Below are positions 19,623-29,852 of a DNA stretch of 64,000 nucleotides, one piece after another (the first letter of the stretch is position 1; each line of letters begins with the position of its first letter). The notes below the pieces were generated by a model. That model was not told the origin of the DNA. It did not search any database and saw only the letters and a list, made by a program, of their open reading frames with translations. The position numbers were made by a program, and so were the translations under genes. This stretch comes from Myxococcus xanthus (GTDB lineage Bacteria > Myxococcota > Myxococcia > Myxococcales > Myxococcaceae), in contig NZ_FNOH01000018.1 in assembly GCF_900106535.1 (NCBI RefSeq), positions 1-64,000 of the forward strand, written 5' to 3'.

Positions 19623-20399
19623 TCAGCGCGTGAGGCCGCGCTTGCTCTGCTGGATGAACTGGATGAGGTGGTCCACCTCGGAGTGGCCCGCCAGCTCCGC
19701 GCGCAGCCGCACCATGGCCTCCTGGAGCGTCAGCTTCGAGCGGAACAGGATGCGGTGCGCTTCCTTCACCCGCTCGATCTGCTCCTTGGAGAAACCGCTG
19801 CGCTCCAGGCCCACCGTGTTGAGGCCCACCAGCTCCGCCCGGTCTCCCTGGGCGGTGGCGTACGGCGGGATGTCCATGGTCACCATGGCGCCGCCGGAGA
19901 TGAAGGCGTGCTTGCCCAGGCGGGTGAACTGATGCACCGCCGCAAGGCCGCTGATGATGACGTGGTCCTCCATCGTCACGTGGCCCGCGAGCGCGGAGCC
20001 ATTGCCGATGCGGCAGCCATTGCCCACCACGCAGTCATGCGCGACGTGACAGTTGGCCATGAAGAGGTTGCCACTGCCAACGCGGGTCGCGCCGCCACCA
20101 CCGGCGGTGCCCTTGTGCAGCGACACGAACTCGCGAATCTGGTTGTCGTCGCCGAGCACCAGCTCCGTGTCCTCGCCCGCGTACTTGAGGTCTTGCGGGT
20201 CGGCGCCAACGGAGGCGAACTGGAAGATGCGATTGCGCTCGCCCAGCGTCGTGCGGCCTTCGATGACGACGTGGGGCCCCACGCGGGAGCCTGCACCAAT
20301 CGTTACCTGGGGACCGATGATGGAATAGGGGCCGACCTCGACGGTTTCGTGAAGGCGGGCGTCGGGATGAACCACCGCGGTGGGATGAACCTGAGCCAT
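19623..20399 (-). CDS. lpxA: UDP-N-acetylglucosamine O-acyltransferase
   Basis: 258 aa. First step of lipid A synthesis: transfers an (R)-3-hydroxyacyl chain from ACP to UDP-GlcNAc. The N-terminal two-thirds is left-handed beta-helix hexapeptide repeats (VHPTAVV, TIGAGSRV, VVGNGCRIGNG). H121 in NCHVAHDCVVGN matches the catalytic histidine (H125 in E. coli). The C-terminal helical part holds QIERVKEAHRILFRSKLT. Sits 29 bp after fabZ. Confidence 0.96.
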   Translation of the reverse strand: MAQVHPTAVVHPDARLHETVEVGPYSIIGPQVTIGAGSRVGPHVVIEGRTTLGERNRIFQFASVGADPQDLKYAGEDTELVLGDDNQIREFVSLHKGTAGGGGATRVGSGNLFMANCHVAHDCVVGNGCRIGNGSALAGHVTMEDHVIISGLAAVHQFTRLGKHAFISGGAMVTMDIPPYATAQGDRAELVGLNTVGLERSGFSKEQIERVKEAHRILFRSKLTLQEAMVRLRAELAGHSEVDHLIQFIQQSKRGLTR

Positions 20400-20428
20400 G
20401 AAGTCTCCTCGTGCTCGCGGGGCGCGAA

Positions 20429-20890
20429 TCAGGATGCCGCGCTCTCAGCCGCGTCGGCGTCCTTGTCCACGACGGTTGCCAGGAACTCGCCTTCGGCGAC
20501 ACGCGCGCCGTCGACCGTCGCCAGGCCCTTCGTCTTCCAGACAGCGCCCTTGTGACGCACCACCTCGATCTCCAACTGGAGGCGATCCCCCGGCAACACC
20601 GGCTTGCGGAAGCGCGCGCCGTCCACGCCCATCAGGTACGTGAGCTTGCGCGACGGATCCATGTTCTCGCTCTTGTAGGCGAGGATGGCCGTCGCCTGCG
20701 CCAGCGCCTCCAGGATGAGCACACCCGGCATCACCGGGTGACCGGGGAAGTGCCCGTTGAAGAAGGGCTCGTTGATGGTGACGTTCTTGTAGGCCGTCAG
20801 CTTCTGGCCCGGGATGATCTCCACCACCCGGTCCACCAGCAGGAACGGGTACCGATGCGGCAGCAGATTGAGAATCTCTCCGATGTCCAT
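20429..20890 (-). CDS. fabZ: (3R)-hydroxyacyl-ACP dehydratase
   Basis: 153 aa hot-dog fold enzyme of fatty acid synthesis. LLPHRYPFLLVDRV and NGHFPGHPVMPGVLILEALAQ are diagnostic. H47 and E61 are the expected catalytic pair. It competes with LpxA for 3-hydroxyacyl-ACP, which explains its conserved place in lpx operons. Its ATG overlaps the lpxD stop by one base (TGATG). The frame extends upstream inside lpxD, but the conserved N-terminus fixes ATG 20890. Confidence 0.96.
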   Translation of the reverse strand: MDIGEILNLLPHRYPFLLVDRVVEIIPGQKLTAYKNVTINEPFFNGHFPGHPVMPGVLILEALAQATAILAYKSENMDPSRKLTYLMGVDGARFRKPVLPGDRLQLEIEVVRHKGAVWKTKGLATVDGARVAEGEFLATVVDKDADAAESAAS

Positions 20891-21939
20891 CACGGCCCCT
20901 TTTCCTTCTCCAGCGTCTCCACCCGGCGCCGCAGGGCGCGCACTTCCTTGAGCAGGTCCGCCATCTGGCCCGCCGCGGCGCTGGCCCGCAGCCACTCTCG
21001 GTGGGGAACGGCGGGGCTACCGCTCACCACCTGGCCGTCCGGCACGTCGTGCGCGACGCCGGACTGCGCGCCCACCTTGGCCAGGTCACCGACGCGGATG
21101 TGCCCCACCACGCCAACCTGCCCCGCGAGCACCACGCCCGTCCCAACCTCCGCCGAGCCGGACACACCGGCCTGAGCGCAGATGAGGGACAGCGGGCCCA
21201 CTCGCACGTTGTGGGCAATCTGCACCAGGTTGTCGAGTTTCGCGCCGCGCCCCACCACGGTCTCGCCCACCGTCGCGCGGTCGATGCAGGTGCACGCCCC
21301 TACCTCGACGTCGTCCTCGATGCGGACGATGCCGACCTGGGGAATCTTGAAGTGCTCCGGCCCCGCCTCGCCTTCCGGGTTGAAGGCGAAGCCGAAGCCG
21401 TCCGCGCCCACCACGCTGGAAGCGTGGAGGATGACGCGCGCGCCCACGATGCAGCGCTCGCGCACCGTGACGTTGGGGTACAGGACGCAGTCCTCCCCCA
21501 CCTCGGCCTGTTCGCCCACGTAGGCGCCCGGGTACAGCACCGTGCGCGCGCCCACCCGTCCGCCCCGGTCCACCGACGCGCCGGGCAGCAGCACGGCCTC
21601 CGGATGGACGGTGGCCTCGGGATGGACCCAGGCGCCGGGCCTCACGCCCGCGGCGGGACGCTCTGGCGCATGGAACAGGCGCAGCAGCTTCGCGTACGCC
21701 AGATGCGGGTTGGCCACCCGGACCAGCGCCACGCCCTCGCGGGGGGGCACGTCGGCGCCCACCAGCACCGCCGAGGCACGGGTGGCCTCGAACTGGCGCC
21801 GATAGCGCGGGTTTCCGTAGAAAGACACGTCTCCCGGGCCGGCTTCTTCAAGCCCGTTGAGTCCGTGAATGAGCTGTGAGGGGTCACCGAGGAGCTCTCC
21901 ACCCACGTGGGCGGCGAGTTCCCCGAGCTGGCGGGGCAT
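20890..21939 (-). CDS. lpxD: UDP-3-O-acylglucosamine N-acyltransferase
   Basis: 349 aa. Adds the N-linked hydroxyacyl chain in the third step of lipid A synthesis. An N-terminal uridine-binding domain (QLGELAAHVGGEL, INGLxGLEEAGPGDVSFY-like) is followed by a long left-handed beta-helix. VQIAHNVRVGPLSLICAQAGVSGS contains the conserved catalytic histidine region. The C-terminal helix (LLKEVRALRRRVETLEKE) is typical. ATG 21939 begins the conserved start, 31 bp after skp. Confidence 0.95.
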   Translation of the reverse strand: MPRQLGELAAHVGGELLGDPSQLIHGLNGLEEAGPGDVSFYGNPRYRRQFEATRASAVLVGADVPPREGVALVRVANPHLAYAKLLRLFHAPERPAAGVRPGAWVHPEATVHPEAVLLPGASVDRGGRVGARTVLYPGAYVGEQAEVGEDCVLYPNVTVRERCIVGARVILHASSVVGADGFGFAFNPEGEAGPEHFKIPQVGIVRIEDDVEVGACTCIDRATVGETVVGRGAKLDNLVQIAHNVRVGPLSLICAQAGVSGSAEVGTGVVLAGQVGVVGHIRVGDLAKVGAQSGVAHDVPDGQVVSGSPAVPHREWLRASAAAGQMADLLKEVRALRRRVETLEKEKGP

Positions 21940-21970
21940 GGGAGCGGTCTGCACGAGTTGGGAGTGACGG

Positions 21971-22525
21971 CTACTTCTTCGTCGGGGCGTCCTTCGCCGC
22001 CGTCTTCTTCGAGCTGTTGTACGCCCGGATGACCTCGTTGGAGATGTCGTGCTGCGAGCGGGCGTAGACGATGCCGGAGTCGCGGCGCTCGAGGACGAAG
22101 CCCAGGTCATCGCGCTCGGCGATGGTGTTGATGATGGAGTCGATCTTGTCGATGATCGGCTTCATCTCCTGCTGCTCCTTGTTGGCGGCCTCGGCGCGGC
22201 TCTTCTCCCACTTCTGGGCGAGCAACATCACCTTGCGCTGGAGCTCGGCCTCCTTCTGGGCCTTGCTCTCCGCGCTCATGGCGCTGGCCTGCTTGTCGAG
22301 CGTCTCCTTCTCGGCGCGGAGCGCGTTCTGCTCCTTGTCGATTTCCTTCTGGCGGTCGTCGAGCCACTTCTGGAGACGGGACTTGGCGGCCTTTCCGTCA
22401 TCCACCTCCAGCATGACTTTCTGGAGGTCCACGTAGGCGACCTTCAGCTCGGCGGCCGAGGCGGCCACCGGGAGGGCGAGCGACAGAGCGGCGGCCGTGG
22501 CCGCGATGGTGGTGCGAAGCGACAT
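21971..22525 (-). CDS. skp: Skp/OmpH family periplasmic chaperone
   Basis: 184 aa. Signal peptide ends at ASA-A (about residue 24). KVAYVDLQKVMLEVDDGKAAKSRLQKW starts the core, then a long, highly charged coiled-coil arm (about 45-125) returns to GIVYARSQHDISNEVIRAYN. Skp trimers carry unfolded outer membrane proteins to the BAM complex. A GAGGAG ribosome site 9 bp upstream supports ATG 22525 over the in-frame TTG nine bases earlier. Follows bamA by 107 bp. Confidence 0.92.
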   Translation of the reverse strand: MSLRTTIAATAAALSLALPVAASAAELKVAYVDLQKVMLEVDDGKAAKSRLQKWLDDRQKEIDKEQNALRAEKETLDKQASAMSAESKAQKEAELQRKVMLLAQKWEKSRAEAANKEQQEMKPIIDKIDSIINTIAERDDLGFVLERRDSGIVYARSQHDISNEVIRAYNSSKKTAAKDAPTKK

Positions 22526-22632
22526 GTTCAGCAACTCCTCAGGAAGGGTACAAGCTCCGACGTACGCCTATCGGGCATCTTCAATTCCCTCCGCCCGTGG
22601 GCGCGGACGCCGGACGACGGGCCAAGGGCTTA

Positions 22633-25089
22633 TCAGAAGAAGTTGCCGATAGTGAACTCGAACAGAATGTTGTCGTCCTCCGGCCGCTTGGTGAGCGGGA
22701 TGCCCCACTCGAAGCGCAGGGGGCCAATGGGCGAGAACCAGCGGAATCCAAAGCCGGCGGCATGGAAGAGACCGGCCGGCAGCCGGTCCTGGCGGTCCTC
22801 GAAGAAGCGCTCATTCGCCGCGAAGGCGTTACCCGCGTCGTAGAAGACGACGCCGCGCAGGCCGGCCTTCTCGAAGATGGGGAACTCCAGCTCGAAGTTG
22901 AAGATGAGCTGCTTGTTACCGCCGACCCGGAAATCGGTGACGGTCGCGTCCGGACTGCCGGAGCGGGGAACCTTCACGGACGGGCTGATGCTGCGCAGGA
23001 AGTACCCGCGGACGCTGTTGATGCCGCCCACGTAGTAGAGCTCGGAGATGGGCAGCGGCTTGTTCTGGTCCAGTTGCTGGATGTAGCCAATGGTGGCGTT
23101 CGTCTTGAAGACGAAGCCCAGCGGCATGGGGAAGTACAGCCGCGAGTAGGCCGTGTACCGGTTGTAGAGGAACGTACCGCCCAGGAAGTCCGGGGCGAGC
23201 TCCACCGAGCCGTAGTGGATGAAGCCACGCGACGGGAACAGGCGGTTGTCGCGCCGGTCGAACGACAGCGACAGGCGGGCCGCGCTGGTCGTTCCGGACA
23301 GGAACTGGTTGGCCAGCAGCACCGCGCCCAGGTTCTGCCCGGCCTCCACGTTGACCCACTCACGCGAGTAACCAATGGTGCCCAGCAGGTCGTCGATGAA
23401 CTGGTAGCCGATGGACACCGTGCCACCGGTCGAATTGCGGATGAAGCCTTCGTAGTCCGCCTGGATGCGGAAGAACTCCGCCGACAGCAGGTAGCGCGTG
23501 TCCAGGAAGTACGGGTCGTAGAAGGACAGCTGCACCAGGGAGCGCAGACCGGAAATCTGCGCGGACGCGGAGACGCTCTGGCCCCAGCCCAGGAAGTTGT
23601 TCTGGGCGATCTGCGCCGTGAAGATGAAGTTCTCCACGTTGGAGAAGCCCAGGCCGACCTGGAACGTACCGGTGGCCTTCTCCTTCACCTCCACCTGGAG
23701 GACGATGGTGTCGTCCGCCGAGCCGGGGCGCTGGGTGATTTCCACTGTCTCGAAGAAGCCCAGCGCGGTGACGCGCTCGCGGCTGCGGCGCACACCGGTG
23801 CCGCTGTAGAGCTCTCCTTCGTAGACGCGCAGCTCGCGGCGGATGACCTTGTCACGCGTCTTGCTGTTGCCCACCACGTCGATGCGCTCGATGGTGACCT
23901 GGGGCCCCTTCTGCACGTCGAAGGTCAGGTCCACCGTGCGGTTGTCCGCGTTGACGCTGGTGATGGGGTTGATGTTCGCGTAGGCGTAGCCGCGGTCGTA
24001 GTAGACGTCCGAGACGGAGAGGATGTCCTGCGACAGCTGCGAGCGGTTGAAGCGCCCGCCGGTGGCGGACTTCATCATCGACGCCATCTGCTCCTTGGTG
24101 ACGTCGTCGAGCAGGTCCCCGGAGAAGTCGATCTTCCCGATGTCGTACGGCTCGCCCTCCGTCACGCGGAGGGTGATGAAGATGAAGCGCTTGTCCGCGG
24201 AGAGCTGGACGGTGGGCTTGTCCACCCGGACGTTGATGAAGCCCTTGTCGTAGTAGGCGATCTGGATGACGGCCAGGTCGCGCTGGAAGGCCTCCTCGCG
24301 GTAGGTGCCCTCACCGGTGAAGAAGGAGAGGAACCCGCCCTCGCGGGTGATCATCGTCTCCTTCAGCTCCGAGGCGGACAGCTTCTCCGCCCCGAGGATG
24401 GTGATCTGCTTCACCATCACCTTGGCGCGCTCGTTGATGTTGAACACCACATCCACGTTGGCGCCGCCCTCGACGGGCTTGAGCTGGTGGCTGACCTCGG
24501 CGAGGAAGTAGCCCTTCTCCACGTACTTCGCCTGGATCTTCTGCACGCTGGAGCGCACCAGCTCCATGTCCAGGATGGTGGAGGGCTTGACGTCAATCTC
24601 CTCCTTCAGGTCGTCCTTGCTCAGCTCCTCGTTGCCGACGAGCTGGACGAGCCGGACGGTGGGGCGCTCCTCCACGCGCACCACGTAGGCGACGCCGCGG
24701 GCCAGCCGCTGGACGAGCAGCTCCACGTCCTGGAAGTAGCCCAGCGCCCACACCGCCCGGAGGTCCTGGGCGGTGCGCGTGGGGCTCAGTTCGTCCCCCA
24801 CACGGGTGCGGAGGGCGCGGCGGATGGCTTCGGCCTCAACGCGCCGGTTGCCTTCGACGCGGACCTCCACCACCCGGCGGGCATCCTCCGGCGACACCGG
24901 GGCGTCATCGGGGAGCGCGGGCTCGGAGGCCACGTCGGCAGGAGCAGCGGGAGCGGTCACCTCGGGCACGGCAGAAGGCGCGGCGGCGCCCTCATCCTCT
25001 TGCGCCAGCACGGAGCCGGGCACGAGGGACCACATGGCGACCGCCAGCAGCGGGAGCAGTGACTTGCGCGACAGAACGGGGTGCCTCAA
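22633..25089 (-). CDS. bamA: Outer membrane protein assembly factor BamA
   Basis: About 818 aa. Inserts beta-barrel proteins into the outer membrane. A signal peptide (SLLPLLAVAMWSLVPGSVLAQ) and a Pro/Ala-rich linker are followed by five POTRA domains (VEVRVEGNRRVEAEAIR opens the first) and a 16-strand barrel. The barrel ends in FEFTIGNFF, with the C-terminal Phe of outer membrane proteins. VGGINSVRGY is the conserved loop-6 VRGY/F motif. The start is uncertain: TTG at 25089 places arginine and lysine just before the hydrophobic core, and TTG 25119 is the upstream alternative. Confidence 0.94.
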   Translation of the reverse strand: MRHPVLSRKSLLPLLAVAMWSLVPGSVLAQEDEGAAAPSAVPEVTAPAAPADVASEPALPDDAPVSPEDARRVVEVRVEGNRRVEAEAIRRALRTRVGDELSPTRTAQDLRAVWALGYFQDVELLVQRLARGVAYVVRVEERPTVRLVQLVGNEELSKDDLKEEIDVKPSTILDMELVRSSVQKIQAKYVEKGYFLAEVSHQLKPVEGGANVDVVFNINERAKVMVKQITILGAEKLSASELKETMITREGGFLSFFTGEGTYREEAFQRDLAVIQIAYYDKGFINVRVDKPTVQLSADKRFIFITLRVTEGEPYDIGKIDFSGDLLDDVTKEQMASMMKSATGGRFNRSQLSQDILSVSDVYYDRGYAYANINPITSVNADNRTVDLTFDVQKGPQVTIERIDVVGNSKTRDKVIRRELRVYEGELYSGTGVRRSRERVTALGFFETVEITQRPGSADDTIVLQVEVKEKATGTFQVGLGFSNVENFIFTAQIAQNNFLGWGQSVSASAQISGLRSLVQLSFYDPYFLDTRYLLSAEFFRIQADYEGFIRNSTGGTVSIGYQFIDDLLGTIGYSREWVNVEAGQNLGAVLLANQFLSGTTSAARLSLSFDRRDNRLFPSRGFIHYGSVELAPDFLGGTFLYNRYTAYSRLYFPMPLGFVFKTNATIGYIQQLDQNKPLPISELYYVGGINSVRGYFLRSISPSVKVPRSGSPDATVTDFRVGGNKQLIFNFELEFPIFEKAGLRGVVFYDAGNAFAANERFFEDRQDRLPAGLFHAAGFGFRWFSPIGPLRFEWGIPLTKRPEDDNILFEFTIGNFF

Positions 25090-25165
25090 GGGGAGACCGG
25101 CCAGGAAAAGGCGGGGCAATCTACGGGAAGGCCCAGCAGGGCCTCAATGCAAAATTGCCAGGACA

Positions 25166-25840
25166 TCACGCCTCCGACACCTCGCCCCCTGCCAACCTGA
25201 GGCGGCGGGGCATGGAGCGGGCAAGCGTCTCGTTGTGGGTGACGACCACGGCGGTGATGCCTTGCTCGCGGTTGACCTCCCGCAGGAGCTGGTGGATGCC
25301 CTCGCCCGTCGCCGGGTCGAGGTTGCCGGTGGGCTCGTCCGCCAGCAACACCGCGGGCTTGAGCACCAGGGCGCGCGCCAGGGCCACGCGCTGGGCCTCA
25401 CCACCCGACAATTCCCCTGGACGGTGGTCCACGCGGTGTCCCAGTCCCACCCGCTCCAGCAGTTCACGGGCGTAGGCGTAGGCGGCGGTGCGGTCCTGTC
25501 GCCGGATGAGGGCGGGCATGGCTACGTTCTCCAGGGCGGTGAACTCCGGCAAGAGGAAGTGGCTCTGGAAGACGAAGCCGATGGTCTGGTTCCGGAACTC
25601 GGCGATCTCCGCGTCGTTCATGGAGAACACCGAGCGGTCCTCGAACATCACCTCGCCGGCGGCCGGGGCATCCAGTGTGCCCAGGACGTGCAGGAAGGTG
25701 CTCTTCCCCGCCCCGGACGCGCCCACCAGCGAGACGAGCTCTCCCCGCTGGATGTCCAGCGAGACGCCTCGAAGGATGTCGATGCGCTTGCCGTGCAGGA
25801 AGTAGCTCTTGAAGACGTTGCGGATGGACAAGAGCGCCAT
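25166..25840 (-). CDS. lolD: Lipoprotein-releasing ABC transporter ATPase LolD
   Basis: 224 aa ATPase of the LolCDE/LolDF complex, which extracts mature lipoproteins from the inner membrane. Walker [10 protein letters not shown], signature LSGGEAQR, Walker [13 protein letters not shown] and H-loop VVVTHNE are intact. [20 protein letters not shown] is typical of the LolD/MacB group. It starts 2 bp after the permease stop, which pins it to that partner. Confidence 0.94.
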
Positions 25841-25842
25841 GG

Positions 25843-28212
25843 CTACTCCGCCTTGAGGCCTTCCACCGGCTCCACACTGCTGGCCTTGAGGGCCGGGTAG
25901 ATGGAGGCGAGGTAGGTGACGAGCACCGCGATGACGACGGCCAGCACGGTCTGCACCGGCTCGACGCGCACCGGCACCGCCGGGATGTAATAGACGTCCG
26001 GGTCCAGCTTGATGCCGACCTTCTCGATGAAGACGCACCAGGACAGGCCGGAAATCAGACCGAGGAAGCCGCCCGCGACGCCAATCTGCAGGCCCTCCGC
26101 GAGGAATATCTTCACGATGCCGCCATCGGGGACCCCCAGTGCCTTGAGGACGGAAATCTCCTTCCGCTTCTCCAGCACCAGCATGATGACGGTAGCGACG
26201 ATGAGGCCCGCGGCCACGATGATGATGATGGAGAGGATGATGCCCATCACCAGCTTCTCCAGGCGCAGCGCGGAGAAGAGGTTCTTGTTCATCTCTCCCC
26301 AGTCGCGTGCCCGGTAGGGATAGCCGCCCAGCACCTTCACCACCTGCGAGGCGATGCGCCGCGCATCGTCGATGTCCGCCACCTTCAGTTCGATGCCCGT
26401 GGCCCCCTTCACGTCGAAGAAGTCCTGGGCCTCGTTGAGGAGGATGTAGACGAACTTGGAGTCGTACTCGTACATGCCCGAGTAGAAGATGGCCGCCACG
26501 CGGAAGGCGCGGCTCTTCGGAATCGGGCCGGACGGCCCCAGCTCGGTGCCCAGCGGGGAGACGACGTTCACCCGGTCTCCCACCACCACGCGCAGCGACG
26601 CCGCCAGCTCACGGCCAATGACGATGCCCGGCAGCACCGGCGCCTTCTTGGGCGTCCCGGAGCGGCGGATGATGTCGTCCTCCTCGACCCCACTCTCCTC
26701 CGCGGGCTCCTCGTCCGGCAGGCCGCGGTGGACGATCTTCTCCGGCGTATAGAGGATGTCGAGCGAGCCGCCACCGAGGATGTTCTTGGGCAGGTCCGTC
26801 ACCTCGCCCACCGTGCCCGGGTCGATGCCCTTGATGATGACGCCGTCCACGTTGCCCTCGGACGCAATCATCACCTGGTTGATGATGAAGGGCGTCTGTC
26901 CCACGACACCGGGCACCTTGCGGACGGACTCCATGACCTTGGCGTACTCGGGCAGGTCGCCCGCGTACTTGGACACCACGGCGTGCGCGTTGGTGCCCAG
27001 GATTTTCTGCTGCAGGTCGGCCTCGAAGCCGCTCATCACCGACAGGACGATGATGAGCGCCATCACCCCCACGCCCACGCCGCCCACGGACAGGGCGGTC
27101 ATCATCATGGTGGGCGACTGCTCCCGAAGCTTGAGGCGGTTGAGGTCGGAGGCGGCCGCCAACGGGTCCTTCAGGCCCAGCTCGCGAATGCGGGTGCGCT
27201 CCACGGCCGCTTCCGCCGAGCGAATGATGAAGTAGATGAGCAGCGGGGGGATGATGCCGAGCATCAGCACCGCCAGCGTCCCCAGCAGCAGCGACGGCCG
27301 GAACACCGCCACGTGCCGGCGCGCGACAAAGAGCTCGAACCCCAGCTTCAGGTCCACCCGGCCGCTGCCGGCGGCGATGAAGCCGGTGTTGATGCCCAGC
27401 ACCAGCGCCAGCACCAGGAAGGTGAAGACGAGCCAGTACCCCAGCTCCGGGCGGCCAATCAGCCCCGCGACGTACGTCACCTCGCGCAGCCGGTAGCCCA
27501 GCGCGAGCTGCAGCCCGGGCAGCCGCTCCATCAACGTGAGGATGATGGGGATGGGCAGGCCCAGGTACAGCACGCCGATGGTGGCCTCGGGCAGCGACAG
27601 CCGCTGCGCGCGCGACGCGCCGATGAAGCCGGAGATGAAGGCCACCATGCCACCCGCGAGCAGCGCGATGGCGAAGGCCCCGGTGGGCGGCAGCGACAAA
27701 CCGCCGCTGGCGCCCTTCCCCGCCGAGCCCAGCTCCGTGGCGGACACGCCGCTGGACAGCACCGTCTGCAGGAGGACGAGGACCACCTCCGCCAGCAGCA
27801 TGCCGCCGCCGTAGGCGCCCAGGGTGCTCCAGTAGAAGTCCCGGTAGCGCGCCAGGCGCGGGTACAGCGTGGCGCCCGCAGCCGGGCTGGGCCCTTCGGT
27901 GGGCTCCGGCGCGCGGCGGATGCCGGCGGCGATGAGCGCCCACCCCGCGAGCCAGACGACGGAGCCCGCGACGAGGAGGCCCGTGTTGGGCACCGTCGCG
28001 ACGGGCTGCTCGGACACGAGCAGCAGCGCGTTGAGGGCCTGGACCAGCCCGCCCCACCCCAGCAGGGACAGCCCCAGGGAGGAGCTGGTCTCCAGCCAAG
28101 CTTGAGAGGACGTGAGCGCCACCCCGAGCAGGCTGAAGCCCACCAGGGCGACCAGCGCCCCAATCCAGATGAAGGTCCAGCGATGGACGGTCTGCCGTTC
28201 GGCGGAGTGCAC
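25843..28212 (-). CDS. LolC/E-type permease with long extra membrane domain
   Basis: 789 aa, about twice the usual LolC/E length. The C-terminal half is a standard permease: [36 protein letters not shown] first helix, a large periplasmic domain, then three helices with [24 protein letters not shown] and [17 protein letters not shown]. The first 360 residues add about eight predicted helices that I do not recognise. [10 protein letters not shown] near residue 285 looks like the usual LolC N-terminal approach segment, split from the core by an extra helix. It is the only LolC/E homologue here, so it may act as a homodimer with LolD. Confidence 0.85.
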
Positions 28213-28224
28213 GCGGCCTCCTGG

Positions 28225-29778
28225 CTACTTCGCCAGTGGCTTGAGGAGGGGAAACAGGATGACGTCCCGGATGCTCTGCGAATCCGTGAACAGCATGGCG
28301 AGCCGATCAATCCCGATGCCTTCACCGGCGGTGGGCGGCATGCCGTGCTCGAGGGCCCGGATGTAGTCCTCGTCGTAGTCCATGGTCTCCTGCTGGCCCC
28401 GCTGCTTCGCGTCCAGCTGAGCCTGGAAGCGGCCCTTCTGGTCCAGCGGGTCGTTCAGCTCGGAGAAGGCGTTCGCGATTTCGCGGCCCGCCACGTACAG
28501 CTCGAAGCGGTCCGTCACGTCCGGGTTCTGGTCATTGCGCCGGGCCAGCGGCGAGACGGCGGTGGGGAAATGGGTGATGAAGGTGGGATGGATGAGCGTG
28601 TGCTCGACGTGGTGCTCGAAGAGCGCGCCCACCAGCTCACCGTGGTTCATCGTGTCGATGGCCCGCCGCTCGGCCTCCGAGTGGCTCGTCTTGAGCAGTT
28701 CGTGGCGCAGCCGGTCCGCGTCCGCCATGTCCTTGTCGGACAGGCCGCTCACCACCTCGCGGATGGCCTCCGTCATGGAGATGCGCTTCCAGCCCTTGCC
28801 GAAGTCGAGCACGTGGTCGCCGTACTTCACCTTCGTGTCGCCGGTGACGGCCTTGGCGGCCTCCGAAATCATCTCCTCGGAGAGGTCCATCAGGTCCTCG
28901 TACGTGGCGTACGCCTGATAGAACTCCAGCATCGTGAATTCCGGGTTGTGCCGGGTGCTGATGCCTTCATTGCGGAAGTTGCGGTTGACCTCGTAGACGC
29001 GCTCCAGGCCGCCCACCACCAGGCGCTTGAGATACAGCTCCGGGGCGATGCGCATGTACAGGTCAATGTCGAGCGCGTTGTGGTGCGTGGTGAAGGGCCG
29101 CGCCGCCGCGCCGGACACGAGCGGGTGCATCATCGGCGTTTCGACCTCGACGAAGTCACGCGTGTCGAGGAAGTTCCGGATGAAGCGGATGAGCTTGTTG
29201 CGCCGGAGGAAGGTCTGCTTCACGTCCGGGTTGGACACGAGGTCCAGGTACCGCTGACGGTAGCGGACCTCCACGTCCGTCAGGCCGTGCCACTTCTCCG
29301 GCAGGGGGCGCAGGGACTTGGTGAGCGGGGTGAACTTCGTGGCGGAGAGCGTGAGCTCGCCCGTCTTCGAACGGAACACCGGACCGGTGGCGGCCAGGAA
29401 GTCGCCCAAGTCACAGAGCTTGAAGGTCTCATAGGAGTCCCCCAAGGCGTCCTTCTTCATGTGGACCTGGATTTCGCCCGAGCGGTCGCGCAGCTTGATG
29501 AAGGCGGCCTTGCCGAAGGAGCGCATGGCCACGACGCGGCCGGCGACGTCATAGGGCGGAGGCGCGGCCTGCTCGATTTCCTCGGCGGACTGAGCGGCGT
29601 GCTTCTCGTGGATTTCGGCGGCCTGGTGCTGGGGACGGTAGCCGTTGCCGTACGGATTGAAGCCGGCCTCGCGCCACTTCGCGGCCTTCTCCAGCCGCTG
29701 GTCGTAGATTTCCTGTTCCTTCGTCCCGAGGTCGCCCTCGCCCGCACTCTTCTCGCTCTTGTTTTCGGTCTCGGCCAT
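28225..29778 (-). CDS. lysS: Lysyl-tRNA synthetase, class II
   Basis: 517 aa. Charges tRNA-Lys. The N-terminal OB-fold anticodon domain (PPYDVAGRVVAMRSFGKAAFIKLRDRSGEIQ) precedes the class II core: motif 1 near FVEVETPMM, motif 2 FRNEGISTRHNPEFTMLEFYQAY, motif 3 GIGIDRLAML. ATG 29778 is chosen; an in-frame codon 15 bp upstream is less conserved. Placed 12 bp before the lolC/E-like gene, so it shares the envelope operon. Confidence 0.96.
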   Translation of the reverse strand: MAETENKSEKSAGEGDLGTKEQEIYDQRLEKAAKWREAGFNPYGNGYRPQHQAAEIHEKHAAQSAEEIEQAAPPPYDVAGRVVAMRSFGKAAFIKLRDRSGEIQVHMKKDALGDSYETFKLCDLGDFLAATGPVFRSKTGELTLSATKFTPLTKSLRPLPEKWHGLTDVEVRYRQRYLDLVSNPDVKQTFLRRNKLIRFIRNFLDTRDFVEVETPMMHPLVSGAAARPFTTHHNALDIDLYMRIAPELYLKRLVVGGLERVYEVNRNFRNEGISTRHNPEFTMLEFYQAYATYEDLMDLSEEMISEAAKAVTGDTKVKYGDHVLDFGKGWKRISMTEAIREVVSGLSDKDMADADRLRHELLKTSHSEAERRAIDTMNHGELVGALFEHHVEHTLIHPTFITHFPTAVSPLARRNDQNPDVTDRFELYVAGREIANAFSELNDPLDQKGRFQAQLDAKQRGQQETMDYDEDYIRALEHGMPPTAGEGIGIDRLAMLFTDSQSIRDVILFPLLKPLAK

Positions 29779-29852
29779 GACGCGCTTTCCCAAAGGCGCG
29801 GCACCGTAGCCAAGCCTCCCCCGGGAAGCAACGCAACACAGCGGATGGCCGC

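Follow-up and report, generated by a model that had tools for sequence, protein, structure and literature searches.

Transport by the Lol system is an antibiotic target whose mechanism is known mainly from E. coli. The commonest Lol arrangement is a lolF gene adjoining lolD, LolCDE being the rare one (PMC11784454). In E. coli LolCDE, lipoproteins are suggested to enter sideways between TM1 of LolC and TM2 of LolE (PMC8333309), LolC Glu263 and LolE Asp264 clamp the lipoprotein Cys+1 (PMC9595528), and the LolA-recruiting hook is described as essential, yet tolerant of single changes (PMC10865981). M. xanthus has sorting signals of its own, +2 Lys for the inner membrane and +7 Ala for the matrix (PMC3222651). 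In one open-access library, we did not find LolF described in connection with myxobacteria or Myxococcota, nor a double-length architecture of this kind.

The window, i.e., the whole stretch of 64,000 nucleotides at the start of contig NZ_FNOH01000018.1, holds what the first-pass annotation took for a double-length LolC/E-type permease beside lolD, and its open reading frame indeed codes for an ordinary core plus 366 added residues (Table 1). The lysS stop codon ends at 28225, ahead of the AGGAGG motif at 28222-28217, and the lolD start codon lies just past the lolF stop. The gene run lysS-lolF-lolD-bamA-ompH-lpxD-fabZ-lpxA occupies one strand (19623-29793 of the window), placing lipoprotein, outer membrane protein and lipid A genes together, and is an envelope-building cluster. 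LolD is the best of the 13 TIGR02211 matches in the genome at E 1e-40, with a score (278.2) under the cut-off of that model (307.75), while LolA and Lnt each have one match over the cut-off in the genome. Among the named relatives found, LolF of M. xanthus AM003 came closest (99%). M. xanthus DK1622 has its Omp85 gene as MXAN4728 and its OmpH gene as MXAN4727 (PMC3222651), and the lolD and lolF genes of that strain would be the next two, 4729 and 4730. Among the 64 LolF loci that we read closely, a LolD match was present at 55 (54 downstream, one in the same ORF) and a LysS match upstream at 54, all on the same strand as lolF; the nine loci without LolD comprised seven second copies (LolF2, see below) and two copies cut by a contig end. 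The single-ORF case (L109 of genome G168, family f21) has a LolF core and a LolD match in one 906-aa frame and looks like a lolF-lolD fusion.

The core was recognized by an FtsX domain (PF02687, residues 658-782, E 5e-16), the only FtsX match in the whole chain, and by a MacB_PCD domain (PF12704) from residue 372 with 27.8 bits against a cut-off of 27. The NCBIfam lolCE model TIGR02212 gave 298.8 bits in two stretches, below its cut-off of 362.45, and the protein was therefore filed as LolF-type by homology rather than as a member of TIGR02212. The ADOP model reached 28.5 bits against a cut-off of 622.3, matching only the C-terminal FtsX region. The nearest solved relatives were LolF, LolC and LolE, the best being LolF (9w37), and in the VIA search residues 289-786 of the model matched LolE of 9rld with a Z of 28.9 (400 residues aligned, rmsd 5.3). 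According to the alignment, the core retains the LolC-type hook, the Glu equivalent to LolC 263 and the U-loop, and the "double LolC/E" is better named LolF. The variable loop in its periplasmic domain is longer in other families.

Table 1. Features of the lolF locus, in coordinates of the window
Feature	Position	Strand	Basis
lysS (lysyl-tRNA synthetase), upstream of lolF	28225..29793	-	
Shine-Dalgarno sequence AGGAGG, 4 nt 5' of the lolF GTG	28217..28222	-	sequence
lolF, extended LolF-type permease, 789 aa, GTG start	25843..28212	-	ORF, domain and profile matches, structure match
Residues 1-104: helix pair at the N-terminus (12-35, 77-97), separated by two short helices	27901..28212	-	models
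Residues 105-288: predicted four-pass membrane module (128-154, 176-202, 207-230 broken, 255-281)	27349..27900	-	models, profiles
Elbow helix, residues 289-301, equivalent to the N-terminus of ordinary LolC/E/F	27310..27348	-	
Residues 302-366: insertion, predicted proline-centred hydrophobic hairpin (about 306-330) and charged linker	27115..27309	-	
LolF core (TM1, periplasmic domain, TM2-TM4), residues 367-789	25846..27114	-	
Loop 488-528 in the periplasmic domain, variable, partly low-confidence	26629..26751	-	
LolA-recruiting hook, residues 555-565	26518..26550	-	P560/G562 align with E. coli LolC P174/G176
E652, aligned to E. coli LolC Glu263 (clamp on lipoprotein Cys+1)	26257..26259	-	
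U-loop (shoulder loop) of the acyl-chain cavity, residues 739-746	25975..25998	-	numbering matched by pattern
lolD, ABC ATPase, ATG 2 nt past the lolF stop	25166..25840	-	
bamA (Omp85), downstream of lolD	22633..25119	-	

The added residues had been described as roughly eight helices, and a hydropathy scan does place eight hydrophobic stretches before core TM1. AlphaFold2 models of the full-length protein (63-row alignment, pLDDT 82.3, pTM 0.72) and of its N-terminal 304 residues alone (51 rows, pLDDT 82.6, pTM 0.65) agree closely on the helices, i.e., 12-35, short 39-49 and 54-65, 77-97, 128-154, 176-202, a broken 207-218/220-230, 255-281 and the elbow at 291-301; helices 306-318 and 321-348 after the elbow come from the full-length model only. 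Of the eight stretches, the models turn 48-66 into short helices, break 210-228 and make 308-326 part of a hairpin. With passes and hairpin read from model helix lengths and charges, the added part is predicted to form about six membrane passes and a proline-centred hairpin between the elbow and core TM1, so that the figure of eight stands for hydrophobic stretches and not for passes. The membrane topology was inferred from positive charges: the mean number of K+R per loop across 45 family sequences is high in 98-127, 282-305 (5.0) and 332-366 (5.9) and low in 36-76 (0.6) and 155-175, which fits six passes with the elbow and the linker in the cytoplasm, while loop 231-254 (mean 3.0) fits poorly with the periplasmic placement that this topology gives it. 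L104, a relative without extension, begins MRFETFVALRHM, i.e., the elbow motif is the N-terminus of an ordinary LolF, and the extension therefore has two components, a module before the elbow and an insertion behind it. As reported, an insertion does exist between the approach segment (the elbow, 291-301) and the start of core TM1 at 367; a central proline in the hydrophobic stretch that follows the elbow recurs in several families, and the insertion is absent in L053-L057 and L092.

All 26 other genomes of the genus carry the full-length protein, and a match to the core was found in 139 of 145 genomes of the class and in 153 of the 156 genomes of the phylum that are at least 90% complete. At the 64 loci, hydrophobic stretches before the core were counted instead of residues, since stop-to-stop frames overstate length. 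This survey of homologues, suggested in the first-pass annotation, shows extensions in other families and zero to ten stretches across the loci. Three other families of the phylum lack the extension, zero stretches preceding the core in L104, L110, L112 and L113 (families f17, f15 and f18); the zeros obtained for L093, L101, L121 and L126 are spurious, the profile match having started late. One stretch was counted in L105 and L111 and three or four in the other countable f11 loci, three to six in many further loci, while seven to ten precede the core in L051 (f8), in f16 and in most f1 loci. A profile of the module (residues 100-287 of family f1 as seeds, iterated six times against 1998 ORFs) reached 41 of the 64 LolF ORFs and no other ORF of the 1998. 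Outside f1, it reached 15 of 38 LolF, in f2, f3, f5, f8, f9 and f10 as well as f16; 12 of the 17 loci of the same class outside f1 were reached, and f16 is a family outside the class. As these profile matches show, the extension is not special to Myxococcus: further families of its class, and one family beyond the class, have a homologous module. The profile left 23 of the 64 unreached, some of them with 4-6 added stretches, and the additions in f4, f6, f7, f11, f19 and f21-f23 may have a separate origin or be too far diverged. The core tree (44 rows) allows gain as well as loss of the extension in the phylum. As a side observation, L135 (BNCN01000006.1), titled Comamonas sp. KCTC 72670, has a Myxococcus-like lolF (92%), and its title looks wrong.

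Selection was gauged by omega in nine pairs (seven LolF1-LolF1, one LolF2-LolF2 and one mixed), which gave 0.14-0.56 for the fast-evolving residues 1-104, 0.10-0.47 for 105-288, 0.06-0.24 for 289-366, 0.10-1.48 for the loop 488-528 and 0.02-0.29 for the remaining core. The extension is under purifying selection, with its front part loosely kept, and 51 rows show no or almost no variation at F126, G195, E209, G273, G284, D287 and E293. We consider it probable that the protein is a housekeeping LolF whose integral N-terminal module shapes or guards the side entrance for lipoproteins. In a Myxococcus near M. xanthus, its work would be that of a housekeeping LolF, with two LolF (a putative homodimer) and two LolD pulling lipoproteins from the inner membrane and handing them to LolA, and the core would keep the working parts for this, namely the elbow helix, the clamp E652, the U-loop, the hook and the coupling helix. 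In the same chain, the N-terminal 366 residues would make up an integral membrane module of layered build, i.e., a four-pass unit joined to the elbow and common to other families of the class, a helix pair before it, and a hairpin between elbow and TM1. The module being joined to the elbow and to TM1, a helix that borders the side entrance, we infer that it shapes or guards this entrance, whether by gating, by dimer support or by docking of lipoproteins or a partner protein. A role at the side entrance is the simplest guess; for gating, no family, fold or experiment speaks in favour. With none to ten stretches depending on the locus, the extension cannot be needed for Lol function generally.

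The same variation in size between families, with some Myxococcota LolF having no extension whatsoever, would also be expected if membrane helices had gathered in front of LolF by neutral accretion and were tolerated without effect on transport, as would the quick evolution of residues 1-104 and of the loop 488-528 and the want of a recognized family. We regard such accretion as possible but rather unlikely, given that residues 105-366 are under purifying selection, that seven positions are invariant or nearly so in the 51 rows and that the four-pass unit is present in several families.

Searches with the extension returned no recognized family or fold: Pfam on 51 members gave three families, each matched by a single one of the members (E 0.005-0.01), a sequence profile against the PDB had a best E of 0.023, Foldseek against the PDB a best E of 1.1 with none at or below 0.001, and the search of BFVD a best E of 0.59. 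ADOP and BceB are FtsX-type ABC permeases with membrane helices beyond the basic four, and the structure matches to BceAB cover the core here, not the extension. The top VIA row for the module (residues 128-295) was LucB of the mycobacterial Mce1 lipid transporter (8fed_K; Z 7.6, rmsd 3.8, 125 aligned), a Z within the range that unrelated helical bundles reach. LucB is a four-helix protein beside an ABC lipid transporter and has a weak fold likeness to the module; in contrast to this likeness, no sequence similarity between the two was found, and LucB is a subunit of its own, which binds Mce1C (PMC9882608). LucB also matched the core helices in the full model (Z 8.7), as could be expected if the N-terminal part were a worn duplicate of the permease membrane domain, as in ADOP; we hold this to be improbable, the 51 members having no FtsX match in the module at E 0.01, no sequence similarity being seen, and such Z values for helical bundles possibly reflecting just a common arrangement. 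That the extra region is a separate protein, with an internal start giving an ordinary LolF of about 430 aa, is very improbable in spite of the many in-frame GTG codons that occur early in such genes (as seen at the near-identical locus L038), as the start signal stands at the first GTG, all 26 other genomes of the genus retain length and open frame, and the elbow is split from the core by an insertion under strong purifying selection; an internal start was rejected on these grounds. A LolF with an integral module at its side entrance remains the reading that we prefer for the window copy.

This copy had been called the only LolC/E gene beside lolD, which is correct as far as lolD is concerned and normal for LolDF, where lolF beside lolD is the commonest arrangement. 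The proposed search of the genome for another LolC/E gene did return one, a second full-length lolF (LolF2) at G000:C25:32334-34697 (L038:7332-9698) that is 92% identical and has no lolD in the 17 kb read. Such lolD-less copies were found in 7 of 96 family genomes and in three genomic settings. Within LolF of the M. xanthus group, they branch as a single clade (support 100/97, or 100/100 without the C25 copy), in which the C25 copy is tied to those of G017 and G024 (99/96 and 92/84), and this nesting points to a duplication in that group followed by transfer to other Myxococcus and to Citreicoccus (G062). G018 has a scar at the syntenic place (L194:7343-7595), made of 174 bp and 82 bp of the C25 locus, and LolF2 was accordingly lost there; G006, G023 and G001 are without the whole stretch of approx. 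6.2 kb, by loss or through never having had it. Between the C25 and window copies, dS is 0.033 in residues 367-487 versus 0.18-0.27 in the five other regions, which suggests that the C25 copy exchanged sequence with the main copy by gene conversion. Contamination as a source of the C25 copy was rejected, because four near relatives have its S8 protease neighbour at 97-98% identity, gene conversion within a single genome would leave such a low-dS tract, and pieces of the same locus persist in G018. Ten neighbour proteins of LolF2 were scanned (among them cellulase, HAD, dienelactone hydrolase, subtilase, amidohydrolase, deaminase, ureidoglycolate lyase and DUF2306); the neighbours differ among the three settings and these ten gave no functional clue.

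Compared with 45 family LolF rows (one sequence occurring twice), E652Q, I743M and L290M were found in seven of seven LolF2, Y742F in six of seven, and L362Q in six of seven versus 1 of 45; further differences at the family level, such as R241H and E640A (each in six of the seven), are not in the cavity. Position 652 is Glu in all 57 other LolF of the phylum alignment. At seven of the 90 near-invariant columns, two or more of six LolF2 differ, and all seven are located in the published cavity (389, 399, 652, 742, 743) or the hook (560, 562), regions that hold 18 of the 90 (hypergeometric 4e-6, with positions listed after seeing the data). Differences in a single LolF2 concern column 645 in the C25 copy, outside cavity and hook, and column 736 in G062. 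P560 aligns with P174 of LolC, the hook apex. The hook is changed only in G007, G013, G008 and G014 (L039-L042), with P560 replaced by A or V and G562 by M, both of them residues that do not vary in the other LolF, and the C25 copy in the genome of the window keeps it. In E. coli, substrate entry was abolished by LolC E263Q and by LolE D264N, neither of which restored growth; changing LolE D264 to A, F, E or K disturbed substrate entry in every case, but only F and K appeared lethal (PMC9595528).

A LolF2 with Gln in place of the clamp Glu might thus be unable to bind lipoproteins, and tentatively, it could be a decaying or inhibitory copy and not a partner of the main protein. The E. coli result for E263Q is in line with this, as are its presence in only 7 of the 96 family genomes and the scar in G018. 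On the other hand, the frames are open, with no stops, in all seven copies, omega is 0.15-0.31 in three LolF2 pairs, the coupling helix is almost unchanged, and the repeated changes at sites near-invariant across the phylum fall in functional regions. A more doubtful possibility is that LolF2 is a LolE-like partner, with the LolF homodimer of some myxobacteria splitting again into LolF1 in the role of LolC and LolF2, both served by the same LolD. LolF1 would then keep the clamp Glu and the hook, LolF2 would act with a Gln clamp and an altered U-loop, the hook apex would be lost in one of its lineages, and the gene would have spread between species. If true, a LolC/LolE-type pair would have arisen a second time, and recently, and a LolF2 that works as a partner would open the origin of the two-subunit LolCDE to study in living species.

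The extended protein is a real, conserved new variant of LolF, not a new kind of system, and a large clade-specific membrane module in a core transporter means that the LolF plan is not fixed; LolF2 with its changed clamp is a more pointed lead than the extension. Compared with the solved LolF (9w37/9w35/9w2w), the protein is alike in core sequence, elbow helix, hook, clamp Glu, U-loop and lolF-lolD order. The solved LolF has approx. 410 aa (ordinary LolC/E/F approx. 400-415, with the elbow at the N-terminus), whereas here there are 789 aa with the elbow at 289-301; the protein differs further by about six predicted additional passes, a hairpin inserted behind the elbow and, within the periplasmic domain, a variable loop. 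With E. coli LolC and LolE it has the core fold in common, combining a LolC-type hook and Glu263 with a LolE-type U-loop. In contrast to E. coli LolCDE, which is built with two unlike subunits, a single protein with a large N-terminal extension stands here beside lolD.
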